In this document: piece after piece, positions 54,647 through 60,511 of the stretch
Layout: each line of letters starts with the position of its first letter
How positions within the stretch are numbered: position 1 is the stretch's first letter
Source: Ensifer adhaerens
GTDB taxonomy: Bacteria; Pseudomonadota; Alphaproteobacteria; Rhizobiales; Rhizobiaceae
DNA length: 64,000 nucleotides
Assembly (NCBI RefSeq): GCF_020035535.1
Contig: NZ_CP083349.1
Location: 2,604,001 to 2,668,000, forward strand
Direction: 5' to 3'
Notes under the pieces: model-generated
What the model was told of the DNA's origin: nothing
What the model saw: only the letters and a program-made list of their open reading frames with translations
Database searches by the model: none
Translations under genes and position numbers: made by a program

Positions 54647-55474
54647 TTGCAACAGACAAAGGGGCACGCACTCGAAGTTCGTCTATCCGCCTATATCGAC
54701 GGCGAGATCGGCGAAGCCGAACGACATGAACTCGAAGCGCTTCTCGCCCGCGACGACGACGCCAAGGCCTTGTTCGAAAAGCTGAAGGCCGGCAGCAGCT
54801 TCGGCGATACCGCCTTCGAGGATTTTCTGCATGATCCCGTGCCGTTGGCCCTGGTTCGGCAGATCAAGCAAGGTCCCGGCGCCAGTCCCAAGACCGAGCG
54901 CGTGACGGCGACAGCCGCCAGCGTCAGAAACGTACGCATCTGGCCGCGCGTGCTTGCGGCATCGGTGGCGCTCATGCTGCTCGGCGGTTCGGCCGGCTTC
55001 CTCATCGGCGCGGCCAACAACGCAGGCCAACAGGCCGAGTTGGCGGCCGCCCGTGGCTGGCTTGACGATATCGCCGACTACCACCGCGTCTACTCGCGAC
55101 AGAAGGACCATCTCGTCGAGGTCCCCGCCTCCGAAGCACCCAAGATCGAGACCTGGCTTTCAGCCAGCGTTGGCGTTCCCTTCAAGATCCCGCAGCTTGG
55201 CGGCAAGGGCCTGACCTTCGAAGGCGCCCGCCTGCTGGTGGCCGACGGCAAGCCCGTGGCGCAGCTGGTCTACCGCAGTGCAGATGGGGAGATCTTCGCG
55301 ATCTGTTTCCTCAAGAATACGACTGGCCCGCAGCCGGTCGATTTCGACGAGAGCATCCGCGACGATCTCGGCATGGTTTCCTGGCAGAGAGGCGGCGCCG
55401 CCTTCGTGCTCGTCGGCCCTTCCGCCCATGTCGGGATGCAGGATATCGCCGAGGCCGCCGCCGCGGCGATCTGA
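54647..55474 (+). CDS. Transmembrane anti-sigma factor
   Basis: A 275-residue single-pass protein. The N-terminal cytoplasmic part (VRLSAYIDGEIGEAERHELEALL) is an anti-sigma domain; the zinc motif HxxxCxxC is absent. The membrane helix is at about 103-125 (VLAASVALMLLGGSAGFLIGAA), followed by a periplasmic domain that would sense the stress. It starts with TTG, with AGGAGGGCC upstream and the sigma gene's stop between. It is the cognate inhibitor of the ECF sigma factor. Confidence 0.88.
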   Translation: MQQTKGHALEVRLSAYIDGEIGEAERHELEALLARDDDAKALFEKLKAGSSFGDTAFEDFLHDPVPLALVRQIKQGPGASPKTERVTATAASVRNVRIWPRVLAASVALMLLGGSAGFLIGAANNAGQQAELAAARGWLDDIADYHRVYSRQKDHLVEVPASEAPKIETWLSASVGVPFKIPQLGGKGLTFEGARLLVADGKPVAQLVYRSADGEIFAICFLKNTTGPQPVDFDESIRDDLGMVSWQRGGAAFVLVGPSAHVGMQDIAEAAAAAI

Positions 55475-55503
55475 CGGCGCTAGTCGAATTTCAGACATGA
55501 AAA

Positions 55504-55531
55504 AGGCCGCACCGGATTGCCGGTGCGGCCT
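55504..55531. terminator. Bidirectional terminator
   Basis: A perfect 12-bp stem (AGGCCGCACCGG/CCGGTGCGGCCT) with a 4-base loop between the convergent anti-sigma and leuA genes. An A tract on the left gives a T tract on the leuA side. Confidence 0.85.
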
Positions 55532-55556
55532 AATTACTTGCTCGCCGATGCTCCGA

Positions 55557-57266
55557 TCAGTCGCGCTTCATGTCCAGGACGCGGTTTGCCGCCGAAACGA
55601 TCGCTTCGAGCGAGGCAGCAACGATGTTGGTGTTGATGCCGGCGCCGAAGAGCTTTCCGTCCGGATGCTCCATCTCGACATAGGCGATGGCCGCCGCGTT
55701 GGAACCGTGCTGCAGCGAGTGCTCGGAATAGTCAGCGACCGAAAGATCGATGCCCAGATAGATCGACAGTGCGTTGATGAAGCCGTCGATCGGGCCTGTG
55801 CCCTTGCCTTCGATCCGCTTCACCTCGCCGTTGTCGGTGATCTCGGCAGCGACCACGCGCACGCCCTTGTGCTCGCCCACCGGATAGGTGTGGTGGTCGA
55901 CAAACTTGATGCGCGCGCCGGGCTGCTCGACATAACGCTCGATGAAGCGCTCGTAGATGCGCTTCGAAGGCAGTTCCTTGCCTTCCTCGTCGGTGATGCG
56001 CTGGATGTCTTCACGGAACTCTACCTGGAGGTTGCGCGGCAGGTTGATGCCGTAGTCCTCCTGCAGGATGTAGGCGATGCCGCCCTTGCCCGACTGCGAG
56101 TTGATGCGGATGATCGCCTCGTAGGAGCGGCCGACATCGCGCGGGTCGATCGGCAGGTAGGGCACTTCCCACAGCGGCTTGTTGGCGGTCTTGATCGCCT
56201 TCATGCCCTTGTTGATCGCATCCTGGTGCGAGCCGGAGAAGGCCGTGTAGACCAGTTCGCCGACGTAAGGATGGCGCTCCGGAATGACCATCTGGTTGGA
56301 ATATTCGTAGACTTCCTTGATCCGCTCGATATCCGAGCAGTCGAGTTGCGGGTCGACGCCTTGCGTGAACATGTTCAGCGCCAGCGTGACGACGTCGACG
56401 TTACCGGTGCGCTCGCCGTTGCCGAACAGCGTGCCTTCGACGCGATCGGCGCCCGCCATCAGGCCCAATTCGGTGGCGGCAATACCGGTGCCGCGGTCGT
56501 TGTGCGGATGCAACGAGATGATCAGGCTCTCGCGATTGTCGAGGTTGCGGCACATCCATTCGATCTGGTCGGCATAGATGTTCGGTGTCGCCATCTCGAC
56601 GGTCGACGGCAGGTTCAGGATCAGCTTGTTGTCCGGCGTCGGCTTGACGATCTCGGTGACCGCGTTGCAGATCTCCAGCGCCACTTCGAGCTCGGTGCCT
56701 GTGAAGCTTTCCGGCGAATATTCGAAACGGTAGCCGCCGCCGGCCTTCGCCGCCATGTCGGTGATCATCTTGGCGGCGTCGGTCGCGATCTGCTTGATGC
56801 CGGCAACATCCTTGGCAAACACCACGCGGCGCTGAAGCTCACTCGTCGAATTGTAGAAGTGCACGATCGGCTTGTGGGCGCCCTGCAGCGCCTCGAAGGT
56901 CCGGGTGATCAGCTCGGGCCGGCATTGCACCAGCACCTGCAGCGACACGTCCTTGGCGACATTGCCCTCCTCGATGCACCAGCGGGCAAAGTCGAAGTCC
57001 GTCTGCGAGGCCGAGGGGAAGCCGATCTCGATTTCCTTGAAGCCCATGTCCAGCAGCAACTGGAACATGCGTGCCTTGCGGTCATGGCCCATCGGGTCGA
57101 CGAGCGACTGGTTGCCGTCGCGCAGGTCAACCGAGCACCAGATTGGCGCCTTGGTGATCGTCTTCGACGGCCAGGCACGGTCGGTCAGCGCGATCTGCGG
57201 GTAAGGCTGATACTTCACCGCCGCTTCCGGCATGCCGTTCTTGATGGAATGGGATTTCTGGATCAT
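55557..57266 (-). CDS. leuA: 2-isopropylmalate synthase (long type)
   Basis: A 569-residue enzyme that condenses acetyl-CoA with 2-oxoisovalerate, the first committed step of leucine synthesis. The catalytic TIM-barrel holds SVDLRDGNQSLVDPM near the N-terminus, FHNSTSE-type HFYNSTSELQRRVVF, and SLHPHNDRGTG; the C-terminal LeuA dimer domain (about 430-565) binds leucine for feedback inhibition. It is the long bacterial/fungal-type enzyme. The start is supported by GAAGAGAAG. A leucine-rich leader peptide lies 160 bases upstream and is likely to control it. Confidence 0.95.
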   Translation of the reverse strand: MIQKSHSIKNGMPEAAVKYQPYPQIALTDRAWPSKTITKAPIWCSVDLRDGNQSLVDPMGHDRKARMFQLLLDMGFKEIEIGFPSASQTDFDFARWCIEEGNVAKDVSLQVLVQCRPELITRTFEALQGAHKPIVHFYNSTSELQRRVVFAKDVAGIKQIATDAAKMITDMAAKAGGGYRFEYSPESFTGTELEVALEICNAVTEIVKPTPDNKLILNLPSTVEMATPNIYADQIEWMCRNLDNRESLIISLHPHNDRGTGIAATELGLMAGADRVEGTLFGNGERTGNVDVVTLALNMFTQGVDPQLDCSDIERIKEVYEYSNQMVIPERHPYVGELVYTAFSGSHQDAINKGMKAIKTANKPLWEVPYLPIDPRDVGRSYEAIIRINSQSGKGGIAYILQEDYGINLPRNLQVEFREDIQRITDEEGKELPSKRIYERFIERYVEQPGARIKFVDHHTYPVGEHKGVRVVAAEITDNGEVKRIEGKGTGPIDGFINALSIYLGIDLSVADYSEHSLQHGSNAAAIAYVEMEHPDGKLFGAGINTNIVAASLEAIVSAANRVLDMKRD

Positions 57267-57395
57267 TGCAGCTTCTCTTCATCACTGAGCGCTCTGGCCG
57301 CCTTGCCATACCCGATCGAGGATCGGATTGCGATGGCTAATGCCGCGGCGAGCGCGCCTTTATCCTAAAACTCTTATGGATTCGAGGAGCATCTG

Positions 57396-57440
57396 CCGGC
57401 GTGGCTTTTCGGCCGCCGGGCGCTCCTCAGCGAACCCGGC
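57396..57440 (-). promoter_or_regulatory. Mutually exclusive hairpins of the leuA attenuator
   Basis: On the minus-strand RNA two alternative stems share the same bases. One is GCCGGG-UU-CGCU/AGCG-CCCGGC over 57440-57415, overlapping the leader's stop codon. The other is CCGGCG/CGCCGG over 57419-57396. A further long pairing GAGGAGC/GCTCCTC spans 57429-57384. This is the usual layout of a ribosome-controlled switch. I see no U run after the second stem, so classical intrinsic termination is not shown. Confidence 0.5.
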
Positions 57441-57552
57441 AACCGCGAGTAAGGCCGAGAAGAAGAAGCGAGGCGAAGGCGCGCAACGGCGCACGATTGT
57501 CATCGTGTGCGGCAGGGATCGTAGCGATCCGATATGCGTCGGCCTTGGTCAT
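57427..57552 (-). CDS. Leucine-rich leader peptide of leuA
   Basis: A 41-codon ORF. Codons 29-34 are CTT CTT CTT CTC GGC CTT, giving four Leu in a row, then Gly-Leu; a seventh-codon TTG Leu lies just upstream. CTT is a minor leucine codon in GC-rich DNA, so ribosomes would pause there when leucyl-tRNA is short. The peptide ends LTRGCRVR before TGA. The ATG lies only 9 bases after a predicted -10 box, so translation may begin without an untranslated leader. Hairpins follow at the stop. It is the sensor of an attenuator for leuA. Confidence 0.65.
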   Translation of the reverse strand: MTKADAYRIATIPAAHDDNRAPLRAFASLLLLGLTRGCRVR

Positions 57553-57561
57553 GGTCAAAGC

Positions 57562-57590
57562 CTATACACGGCTTGCCGGACCGGAGCAAG
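57562..57590 (-). promoter_or_regulatory. Promoter of the leuA leader transcript
   Basis: On the minus strand CTTGCT (57590-57585) and GTATAG (57567-57562) are 17 bases apart, close to the rhizobial consensus. The transcript would begin within a few bases of the leader-peptide ATG at 57552. Confidence 0.6.
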
Positions 57591-57622
57591 CCGCGCAATG
57601 CGCGTAGCTCGCAGCAAAAGAG

Positions 57623-57650
57623 AAGGGCACCGGCGTGAGCCGATGCCCTT
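57623..57650 (-). terminator. Intrinsic terminator of clpP
   Basis: AAGGGCA/TGCCCTT and CGGC/GCCG form a 12-position stem with one mismatch and a 4-base loop, 25 bases after the clpP stop. On the minus strand the sequence continues CTCTTTT. Confidence 0.65.
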
Positions 57651-57674
57651 AATATCCATTCGGTTCAAGCGAAC

Positions 57675-58259
57675 TCAGATGTCCGCAGCCGAGGAGATGA
57701 TGCGCGAAACGAGACCGTAGGCCTTGGCTTCGTCAGCCGAGAGCCAATAGTCGCGGTCCGTGTCCTTGGCGATCTTTTCGACCGGCTGGCCGGTCGCCTC
57801 GGAGAAGATCTTGTTCAGACGATCGTTCATCTTGATGATCTCGCGTGCCTGGATCTCGATGTCCGAAGCCATGCCGCGGGTGCCGCCCGACGGTTGGTGC
57901 AACAGGAAGCGGGTGTTCGGCAGGCAGATGCGGCGCTCCTTCGGGGCGCCGACGTAGATCAGCGCACCGGCAGAGGCGACCCATCCGGTACCGATGGTCC
58001 AGACCTTCGGCTTCACGAACTTGATCATGTCGTGGATGCTGTCGCCCGATTCGACATGGCCGCCCGGCGAATTGACGAAGATGCGAATGTCTTCGTCGCT
58101 GGCCGCGGCAAGCGCCACCAGCTGCGAGCAGACCTTCTGCGCCAGTTCCTGGTTGATCGTGCCGTAGATGAAAATCGAACGCGACTTGAAAAGGTTCGCC
58201 TCCGTTTCCTTGCCAAGCGGCAATTCGGTCTTCTTGTCGTCCTCGTCTTCGTCGTTCAT
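57675..58259 (-). CDS. clpP: ClpP-like ATP-dependent protease subunit
   Basis: A 194-residue ClpP-type serine protease subunit. The triad is complete: Ser96 in WVASAGAL, His121 in LLHQPSGG and Asp170 in TDRDYWL. The nucleophile elbow reads ASAG instead of the usual AASMG, and GLVS replaces GLVD near the end, so this is a divergent paralogue, not the main housekeeping ClpP. The acidic N-terminus ([10 protein letters not shown]) is unusual. It stands alone downstream of hupE's divergent start; the main clpP-clpX is not in this window. Confidence 0.9.
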
Positions 58260-58497
58260 CCGTTTTTCTCCGGCGTCTCATGAATTCTTCAGCCAAAATC
58301 AGATAATGCGACTCGGCCACGAAAACAATGCAACAAACGGAAGGGGCAACAAAGCGGCAGCGCGGACTACGCTTATGGTAAAAACTGCTATCGCCAAATG
58401 CCGTATAGACAGGTCCGGAAAGGCCAATAAGATCAACCGTGTCAAACAACTACGGGACGGGCCACCTCCCAGGCACCGCCGACCTATGGGGACACGC

Positions 58498-59076
58498 ATG
58501 AACAGACGCATCCTGATCGCCGCTGCGGCGCTGGCGGCTTCCGCCGCGCCCGCCTTCGCCCACCTCAATCCGGCAGAGCATGGCTCGTTTGCCGCCGGCT
58601 TCTCCCATCCGCTCTTTGGCATCGATCACATCCTGGTCATGGTCGCCGTCGGCCTTTGGGCGGCCCAGATCGGCGGTCGTGCCCTGTGGGTCGTGCCGAC
58701 AGCCTTCGTCTCGATGATGGCGGCGGGCTTCGCTCTGGCGGTTACCGGTATCGGCCTGCCCTTCGTCGAGCCGGCTATTCTCGCCTCCGTGGTGGCGCTC
58801 GGTCTGCTGGTCGCCATGGCGGTGCGCCTCGATACGGCAGCGTCCGCAGCGATCGTCGGCGTCTTTGCCCTCTTCCACGGTCACGCCCATGGCGGGGAAC
58901 TCGGCAGTGCCGGCGCGCTTTCCTTCTCGGTCGGCTTCATCGCCGCAACCGCCGCGCTGCATGTTGCCGGCATCGGCCTTGGCATCGCGCTTCAGCGTCT
59001 CTCCGGCGGCGGCTTGCTGGCCCGCATCCTCGGCGGCCTCACGGCCCTTGCCGGGGCCGCTTTGATCTTTGGCTGA
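58498..59076 (+). CDS. hupE: HupE/UreJ-family membrane protein
   Basis: A 192-residue inner-membrane protein with a cleavable signal sequence (residues 1-20) and six or so membrane helices. The family marks are HLNPAEHGSFAAGFSHPLFGIDH at the mature N-terminus and ALFHGHAHGGEL. HupE and UreJ import nickel for hydrogenase or urease; no such genes lie here, so the metal (nickel or cobalt) is inferred. The ATG follows GGGGACACGC. It is divergent from clpP. Confidence 0.9.
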   Translation: MNRRILIAAAALAASAAPAFAHLNPAEHGSFAAGFSHPLFGIDHILVMVAVGLWAAQIGGRALWVVPTAFVSMMAAGFALAVTGIGLPFVEPAILASVVALGLLVAMAVRLDTAASAAIVGVFALFHGHAHGGELGSAGALSFSVGFIAATAALHVAGIGLGIALQRLSGGGLLARILGGLTALAGAALIFG

Positions 59077-59097
59077 TACGCCTCAGCCAAAATGAAC

Positions 59098-59120
59098 AAT
59101 GGCGGGCCAGGCCCGCCATT
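59098..59120. terminator. Bidirectional terminator between hupE and queF
   Basis: A perfect 10-bp stem (AATGGCGGGC/GCCCGCCATT) with a 3-base loop between convergent genes. The T tract on the plus strand is short. Confidence 0.75.
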
Positions 59121-59126
59121 CTCGTT

Positions 59127-59591
59127 TCAGCCGCGACCGCGATAGGTCGGCACGCCCTGGTCCGGCAGCCACAGGCCTTCCGGCGGCTTGCCGGTCTGCC
59201 AGAAGACGTCGATCGGGATGCCGCCGCGCGGATACCAATAGGCGCCGATCCGAAGCCAGCGCGGCGAAAGCAGCGAGACCAGCCGGCTGGCGATGTCGAT
59301 GGTGCAATCCTCATGGAAGGCGCCGTGGTTGCGGAAGGAATGCAGGAACAGCTTCAGAGACTTCGATTCCACCAGCCATTCGTCGGGCACATAATCGATA
59401 ACGATATGCGCGAAGTCCGGCTGACCGGTCATCGGGCAGAGCGAGGTGAACTCTGGCGCGGTGAAGCGCACCAGATAGTCCTTGCCCCGGTTGCCGCTCG
59501 GCACCCGCTCCAGCACTGCCTCTTCGGGGCTCTGCGGCAGATCCACCTTCGCGCCCAATTGCGAAAGGCCGGATACGTCGGTCTTGCTCAT
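59127..59591 (-). CDS. queF: NADPH-dependent 7-cyano-7-deazaguanine reductase
   Basis: A 154-residue type I QueF that reduces preQ0 to preQ1 in queuosine synthesis. The nucleophile Cys52 lies in [11 protein letters not shown], with Asp59, and the QueF motif ESKSLKLF at residues 75-82. HEDCTIDI completes the active site. Its ATG overlaps the stop of the CDF transporter gene by ATGA, so they are co-transcribed; queCDE are not in the window. Confidence 0.95.
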
Positions 59592-60511
59592 TTCCGTGTT
59601 GCTCCACTCACCTTGACGCGCACGCCGTGCGCCTTTTCACCTTCCGGCTCCACATGGATCGCGATCCTGGCGCCCGGATGCACATCGCGGATCGCATCCT
59701 CGATCCGGTCGCAGATATCATGCGCCTCGCCAACCGGCATCGCCTCCGGCACGACCATGTGGAAATCCACGAAGATCGCAGGTCCTGCCTGGCGGGTCTT
59801 GAGATCATGCACGCCGAGCGAACCCTTGGCATTGGCCGCAATTACCTGCTTGATCGCCTCTTCCTCTTCACTCGAAACGGCCCGGTCCATCAACCCGTCG
59901 ATCGAACGGGAAATGACTCTCCAGCCCTGGAACAGAATATTGCAGGCAACGATGACCGCAAGCAGCGGATCGAGGATCGCGTAACCGGTAGCGATGGCAA
60001 GAAGAAGGCCGACGAGCACCCCGGCCGAGGTGACCACGTCCGAAAGGATGTGATGCCCGTCTGCGCTGAGCGCAGGCGAGCGATAGCGCGCGCCGGCGCG
60101 GATCAGCACGTAGGCCCAGATCGCATTGATGACACCCGCTATGAAGTTGATCGCAAGTCCGAGCGCCGGCGCTTCGAGGAGCACCGGCGAGAACATTGCC
60201 GGCACCGCTTCCCAGACGATGAGCAGTGCCGCGACCACGATCAGCACGCCTTCGATAACGGCCGAGAAATACTCTGCCTTGTGGTGACCGAAGGGGTGGC
60301 CCGCATCGGCCGGCTTGGAGGCATAGCCGATCATCAGATAGGCGATGACAGCCGCGATCACGTTGACGGTCGACTCCAGCCCGTCGGACAGAAGCGCCAC
60401 CGAGCCGGTCAGCCACCAGGCAAGCAGCTTCAGGCCGAGCACGGCGAGCGAGAGTGGTATGCCCCAAAAAGCAAGGCGGAGCACGGTGCGGTTTTCGGTT
60501 CCAGTCGTCAT
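59588..60511 (-). CDS. Cation diffusion facilitator family transporter
   Basis: A 307-residue CDF antiporter that exports divalent metals such as zinc or iron/manganese. Six membrane helices cover about residues 12-205; the metal sites appear as LLSDGLEST in helix 2 and [13 protein letters not shown] in helix 5, and [11 protein letters not shown] follows helix 2. The C-terminal cytoplasmic domain (about 210-290) has the typical ferredoxin-like fold. I chose the second of two ATGs because of spacing to GAGGA. It overlaps queF. Confidence 0.93.

Follow-up and report, generated by a model that had tools for sequence, protein, structure and literature searches.

The leuA gene of Ensifer adhaerens is preceded by a short open reading frame (ORF) whose late run of leucine codons is predicted to pair with the leuA Shine-Dalgarno (SD) region, and we consider a leucine-sensing translational attenuator, with somewhat better than even confidence, the most likely mechanism of control at this locus. 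The locus was analysed within a stretch of 64,000 nucleotides (hereafter, the window), and comparison across species shows that the ORF and two helices near its end are conserved, that the promoter keeps a characteristic geometry, and that the leucine-codon tract covaries with the SD.

All parts of the element lie on the minus strand. The leader ORF (57427..57552; ATG at 57552-57550, TGA at 57429-57427) has 41 sense codons plus the stop, ends 160 nt ahead of leuA, and carries near its end the sensor codons CTT CTT CTT CTC GGC CTT (57451..57468), i.e., four leucine codons, a glycine codon and a fifth leucine codon, with the UGA lying 21 nt beyond the last leucine codon. This leader, together with switch hairpins upstream of leuA, had been proposed in a preliminary description of the window, and both were confirmed. 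The gene itself (55557..57266) encodes a 2-isopropylmalate synthase of the long type (569 aa; NCBIfam models PRK03739 and leuA_yeast above cut-off), and its SD region, GAAGAGAAGC, occupies 57271..57280. The segment from 57560 to 57360 folds with a z-score of -2.03, equal stability being reached in 4 of 200 shuffles, and a scan of 55000-60000 with the covariance models of Rfam release 15, Leu leaders included, returned no match to the leader; at E-values up to 1 there were two weak matches, both at 57614-57669 and thus outside it. A ClpP-like gene (57675-58259, minus strand; NCBIfam PRK12553 above cut-off) lies upstream of the leader and is followed by a terminator-like hairpin (57650-57623), where the two weak Rfam matches fall. 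Because of this hairpin, we infer that leader and leuA form a transcription unit separate from the ClpP-like gene.

A LeuA match was present in 60 of the 61 genomes searched, and 36 of the 37 genomes from the window's own family, the Rhizobiaceae, encode a long LeuA, the remaining one lacking leuA. Comparison of the region upstream of leuA, as had been suggested for this family, bore out the proposal: A Leu-rich upstream ORF (uORF) stands before leuA in all 36 of the leuA-bearing family genomes. One family genome of 1.1 Mb (L037) has kept leuA with a degenerate leader, in which LLFLGL is retained and the tail is eroded. In 25 family genomes, the leader stop lies 34-228 nt from the furthest-upstream in-frame leuA ATG, the minimum of 34 nt probably reflecting a wrong leuA start. 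Genera differ in the N-terminal half of the peptide but have kept the Leu run, the frame and the stop, and also the tail, of the TRGCRVR or GDRRAR type, whose coding stretch encodes helix 2. The variable N-terminal half lends no support to a function of the peptide in trans, which had also been suggested. A pattern specific to the element matched in 123 of 199 family genomes and, when reversed, in 10; one genome had a second match, probably by chance.

A scan of named relatives, in which seven aligned LeuA proteins served as query and the best 80 loci were kept, yielded a Rhizobiaceae-like LeuA (73-98% identity) at 56 of these 80 (L168-L222 and L242). The leader was seen at 54 of the 56, with L179 in addition, and L209 had no upstream DNA; the leader-bearing relatives include Ensifer, Sinorhizobium, Rhizobium, Mesorhizobium, Hoeflea, Brucella and a Bartonella assembly. 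Among the 24 more distant long-type loci within the best 80, 15 had no Leu-rich uORF at a crude threshold and nine had some candidate, of which those at L223, L236, L244 and L246 look similar.

A second type of leader occurs in other families of the order. Regions upstream of leuA were taken from 20 of 24 genomes of those families, and a leader with a Leu run was found in 19 of the 20 (the exception being L040), mostly ending in CTT-A..-GCCCC-stop, where a stem closing on AGGGG takes in the stop codon; two of these leaders (L041 and L055) were seen in nucleotides only, and that of L045 lies farther upstream. Loci L038-L057 and L138-L167 have a shorter type of leuA, with the leader stop buried in a covarying stem, CCCCTGA...TCAGGGG. 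A pattern for this second type matched in 70 of 111 genomes, but in none of the four among them that belong to the window's family. Across 42 clusters, the stop codon and the opposing arm read TGA/TCA in 20, TGA/TTA in 11, TAG/TTA in seven, TAA/TTA in two, and TAG/CTA and TAG/GTA in one each, with the qualification that the pattern forces the first stop/arm pair and bars G at the next arm position. Among 289 genomes of the class, a narrower version matched in at least 10, none of these 10 belonging to the order. At L223 and L246, a long-type leuA follows a second-type leader, such that leader and leuA types can mix.

To follow the pairing between species, we parsed 156 leaders (104 of the family type, 52 of the second type), 146 of them unique, which fell into 126 clusters (83 family, 43 second type). 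The longest exact complement between tract and SD was then compared between each species' own pair and species-swapped pairs, with leuA start codons that were picked by SD strength and are in some cases wrong. Own pairs exceeded swapped pairs in the 83 family clusters (5.78 versus 5.25, z 5.7) and in the 43 second-type clusters (6.07 versus 5.36, z 5.0), with none of 4000 swaps doing as well in either set, and the tract-SD value was the highest of 25 pairs of sequence windows per type (runners-up 3.1 and 3.0 for the family, 2.2 for the second type). The signal held when swaps were blocked by GC content (z 4.6 for the family; 3.5, with 5 of 4000 swaps, for the second type) or by subclade (z 5.5), and after normalisation for composition (5.4 and 4.8, respectively). 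The main test includes the loci that prompted the idea; with these omitted, clusters unseen when the idea arose gave z 4.2 (n = 64, 1 of 10,000 swaps) and 3.9 (n = 27, 0 of 10,000). A further 24 clusters, drawn from 42 leaders of the best 80 named loci, gave z 1.38, 416 of 4000 swaps being as good, and a first, smaller swap test on duplex energy gave p = 0.08 for the family type (36 loci, at least 15 of them of one genus) and p = 0.001 for the second type (19 loci).

Individual loci illustrate the same relationship: Exact matches that track changed codons reach 10 nt in both L024 and L030, and in L030 and L137, which belong to one genus, tract and SD both differ while matches of 10 and 8 nt are retained. 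In most clusters the exact match is only 4-6 nt, a length that purine-rich SDs often reach, and a contingency test of CTG-to-CAG changes was not significant in either leader type. Within the window, an unusually strong tract-SD duplex was rejected, since among the 60 ORF starts the leuA SD comes only 28th in raw duplex energy with the tract and is not exceptional. Because the cross-species z values stand against this rank, the evidence for tract-SD pairing is, as far as sequence comparison goes, one of fine-tuning in cis across many species rather than of an exceptional duplex in the window.

Folding, in a form that excludes pseudoknots, places the putative anti-SD stretch at 57456..57469 (minus strand), in agreement with the covariation across species. 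In the minimum free energy structure of the window's leader, 57469-57464 and 57462-57459 pair with 57271-57280 (10 pairs with one bulge), and 57458-57456 add three further pairs with 57282-57284. With the ribosome modelled as a 31-nt footprint on the leader RNA, the predicted probability that the SD is unpaired rises from 0.12 in the free RNA to 0.62-0.71 with a ribosome at Leu codons 1-5, and is 0.20 with the ribosome at the stop. Across the 83 family clusters, the mean is 0.300 for free RNA, 0.423 with a ribosome stalled at the first Leu codon and 0.299 with one at the stop (stalled versus free, p = 7.5e-8; increase above 0.05 in 46 of the 83). Folding thus predicts both that the SD is masked and that a ribosome on the Leu codons releases it. 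The 43 second-type clusters behave in part differently: The mean rises from 0.362 to 0.477 upon stalling (in 23 of 43), and the SD is just as accessible with a ribosome at the stop (0.478) as with a stalled one, which counts against translational attenuation. Predicted tract pairing was also higher with the own SD than with swapped SDs (0.697 versus 0.604, p = 0.004; 0.628 versus 0.488, p = 0.009).

The choice of leucine codons is consistent with such pairing. In the tract region, leucine is encoded by CTT or CTC at 355 of 418 positions across the 83 family clusters and at 181 of 220 across the 43 second-type clusters; in leuA itself, these two codons account for 9 of 39. CUU and CUC share the tRNA-Leu with anticodon GAG, and the bias would be explained both by anti-SD pairing and by sensing through a single tRNA.

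Between tract and SD lie two mutually exclusive hairpins, which, like the GAGGAGC/GCTCCTC pairing, are present as had been described and are conserved and covarying in the 83 family clusters. Segment 2 (CGGTTGCCGGG, 57435..57445), within the ORF, and segment 3 (CCCGGCGGCCG, 57410..57420) form an 11-pair helix around the leader stop codon, whereas GAGGAGC (57422..57428), which overlaps the stop codon, is the 5' arm of the competing 3:4 hairpin, with GCTCCTC (57384..57390) as segment 4. Every one of the 11 pairs in helix 2:3 is present in 81-83 of the 83 clusters, although this invariance is partly selected, since the search pattern that yielded the clusters demands parts of segments 2 and 3; one pair covaries (AT in 51, GC in 21, GT in 10), and double changes elsewhere are rare. 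For the five-base arm of 3:4, 69 of the 83 clusters contain an exact complement no more than 60 nt away (GGAGC/GCTCC in 56, GGGGC/GCCCC in 11, GAAGC/GCTTC in two) and the other 14 do not, as against matches in 660 of 3190 species-swapped combinations (0.207).

The promoter for which a start within a few bases of the ATG had been predicted is plausible, not strong. Read by eye, there is a -35-like CTTGCT at 57585..57590 and a -10-like TATA at 57563..57566, the latter beginning at -14 from the leader ATG, but a scan of 57200-57800 for the sigma-70 consensus found no promoter. Spacing in relatives speaks for it: Among the 83 family clusters, TA-type tetramers (seven kinds were counted) begin at -13 in 40 and at -12 in 14 relative to candidate leader ATGs, 54 in total, position -1 is C in 72%, and TTG-like bases are enriched around -36 to -34. 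The second leader type, with 40 clusters, has no such tetramer peak, there being at most four matches at any position. From this geometry, the leader ORF is probably leaderless, with the transcript beginning at or next to its ATG. An inverted repeat, GCTTGC-N9-GCAAGC, at 57571-57591 (minus strand) overlaps the leader -35 and is seen in close relatives of the same genus and not in most other genera compared; it is possibly an operator.

In the translational attenuator that we favour, transcription would start at or beside the leader ATG, as suggested by the promoter geometry, and the CUU/CUC run would act as both sensor and lock: When unoccupied, it would pair with the leuA SD about 180 nt downstream and hold down translation of leuA. 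While leucine is plentiful, the ribosome would reach the UGA, leaving the tract free and the SD masked; with leucine short, ribosomes would be expected to halt at the Leu codons, where they would occupy the tract and leave the SD accessible, such that the likely direction of control is that leucine shortage turns leuA on. The 2:3 and 3:4 hairpins between lock and SD would probably space or gate this pairing, whatever exact part each may take, and untranslated leuA mRNA may secondarily be lost through Rho. The preliminary reading had recognised the Leu leader, the mutually exclusive hairpins and the non-classical character of the attenuator, but had missed the pairing of tract and SD. Of the ways around a missing terminator that it offered (Rho, translation coupling or antisense pairing), translation coupling comes nearest; Rho is kept as a rival. 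We find that tract-SD pairing best explains the missing terminator. That the strongly conserved 2:3 and 3:4 helices have no firm role in the model counts against translational attenuation, as do mutations of Leu codons in the actinobacterial counterpart, which the accessible text of that work reports not to fit attenuation (PMC1262725).

Other mechanisms would account for parts of these observations. In a classical attenuator, 3:4 would act as an intrinsic terminator without a U run, and the Leu codons and the mutually exclusive helices with compensatory changes are as that scheme would have them. As had been stated in the preliminary description, however, no U run follows the second hairpin past 57384; in relatives it is usually absent as well (of the 69 clusters, out of 83, in which segment 4 could be placed, only 6 have TTTT in the 10 nt behind it), a terminator scan found no terminator-like site at 57384, and a ribosome at the stop would, given a 31-nt footprint, cover segment 2 and part of segment 3. 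Because the U run is absent as a rule, this is not a plain intrinsic-terminator attenuator, and we disfavour such termination as improbable. More serious, if still unlikely, is the main rival, Rho-dependent attenuation, in which, with leucine plentiful, the leader ribosome terminates and a C-rich stretch at or after segment 4 recruits Rho, and, with leucine short, stalling on the Leu codons alters the 2:3 and 3:4 hairpins and hides that stretch. Conservation of helix 3:4 despite the absent U run would suit it, as would base composition: Over the 20-40 nt after segment 3, the 83 family clusters average 4.4 and then 3.5 C per 10 nt, against 1.5 and 1.3 G. In the family average, a short C-rich, G-poor stretch thus falls at about 57389-57369 (minus strand), and may be part of a Rho site. 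For an uORF attenuator of S. meliloti, Rho dependence is described as probable in the accessible part of its report, and C makes up 38% and G 18% of an element directly behind that uORF (PMC12218461). The C excess in our leaders is, however, short and partly segment 4 itself, the whole linker has C 0.30 and G 0.26 (82 clusters), skew is slight in the second type, and Rho would leave the covariation of tract with SD unexplained. Both mechanisms could act together, because leuA mRNA left untranslated by SD masking would be exposed to Rho.

Least probable of all, and in our view very much so, is that a regulatory protein or another ligand binds the leader RNA, with the Leu peptide secondary. A protein was proposed for the actinobacterial element, in the text accessible to us with reference to Leu-codon mutation data (PMC1262725), but here the Leu run, the frame and the stop are conserved while the N-terminal half varies, and so is the spacing from promoter to ATG, all of which translation explains directly.

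Translational attenuation through tract-SD pairing has partial counterparts among known systems. Classical leu and trp attenuators of enterobacteria combine regulatory codons in a leader ORF with mutually exclusive helices; a Leu-codon run and mutually exclusive helices are both found here, whereas the U run is usually absent and the predicted target of control is the leuA SD. Antibiotic-resistance genes such as ermC and cat have translational attenuators in which stalling of a ribosome on the leader exposes the SD of the gene that follows, as folding predicts here; in the leuA leader, however, stalling would result from a shortage of charged tRNA-Leu, and the anti-SD would be formed by the stall codons themselves. 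The trpL/rnTrpL system of S. meliloti, as far as described in the accessible parts of two reports, resembles it in having a leaderless leader ORF, in a related genus, and attenuation by an amino acid, and differs in its transcription terminator and in its trans-acting sRNA and peptide (PMC7298713, PMC10117765).

The closest likeness is to the LEU element upstream of leuA in Actinobacteria, for which a base stem between Leu run and SD was predicted in 2005 (Seliverstov et al., PMC1262725); in the accessible text, its authors doubted attenuation on mutation data, proposed a protein and left the mechanism unknown. As described there, both elements have an uORF with a Leu run upstream of leuA, a base stem of Leu run and leuA SD (here by prediction and covariation, with weak signals in the 24-cluster set and in the duplex ranking within the window) and alternative inner structures. 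They differ in that a pseudoknot is described for the LEU element (PMC1262725), whereas pseudoknot-free folding gives 2:3 and 3:4 hairpins around the stop here, and in that the ORF here is probably leaderless and belongs to another phylum. Our literature searches, in which subscription journals were poorly covered, found no alphaproteobacterial leuA leader of this kind. What is new is thus the predicted pairing of a Leu tract with the leuA SD in alphaproteobacteria, the same pairing having been predicted for the actinobacterial LEU element.

We judge the chances to be evenly balanced that leuA leaders of the Hyphomicrobiales constitute a class of translational attenuators whose regulatory codons are themselves the anti-SD, with about 18 nt both sensing and masking, and that this scheme operates on two distantly related leuA types through two leader architectures, one of which has its stop within a covarying stem, and is either shared with the actinobacterial LEU element or has converged on it. 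The model predicts that synonymous Leu codons would break the pairing and that changes in the SD could restore it. If the model is correct, it would add to tRNA charging a further reason for the CUU/CUC codons in the tract, would reopen the case of the actinobacterial LEU element, and would explain how leucine could be sensed at leuA in rhizobia and their relatives when no terminator is involved.
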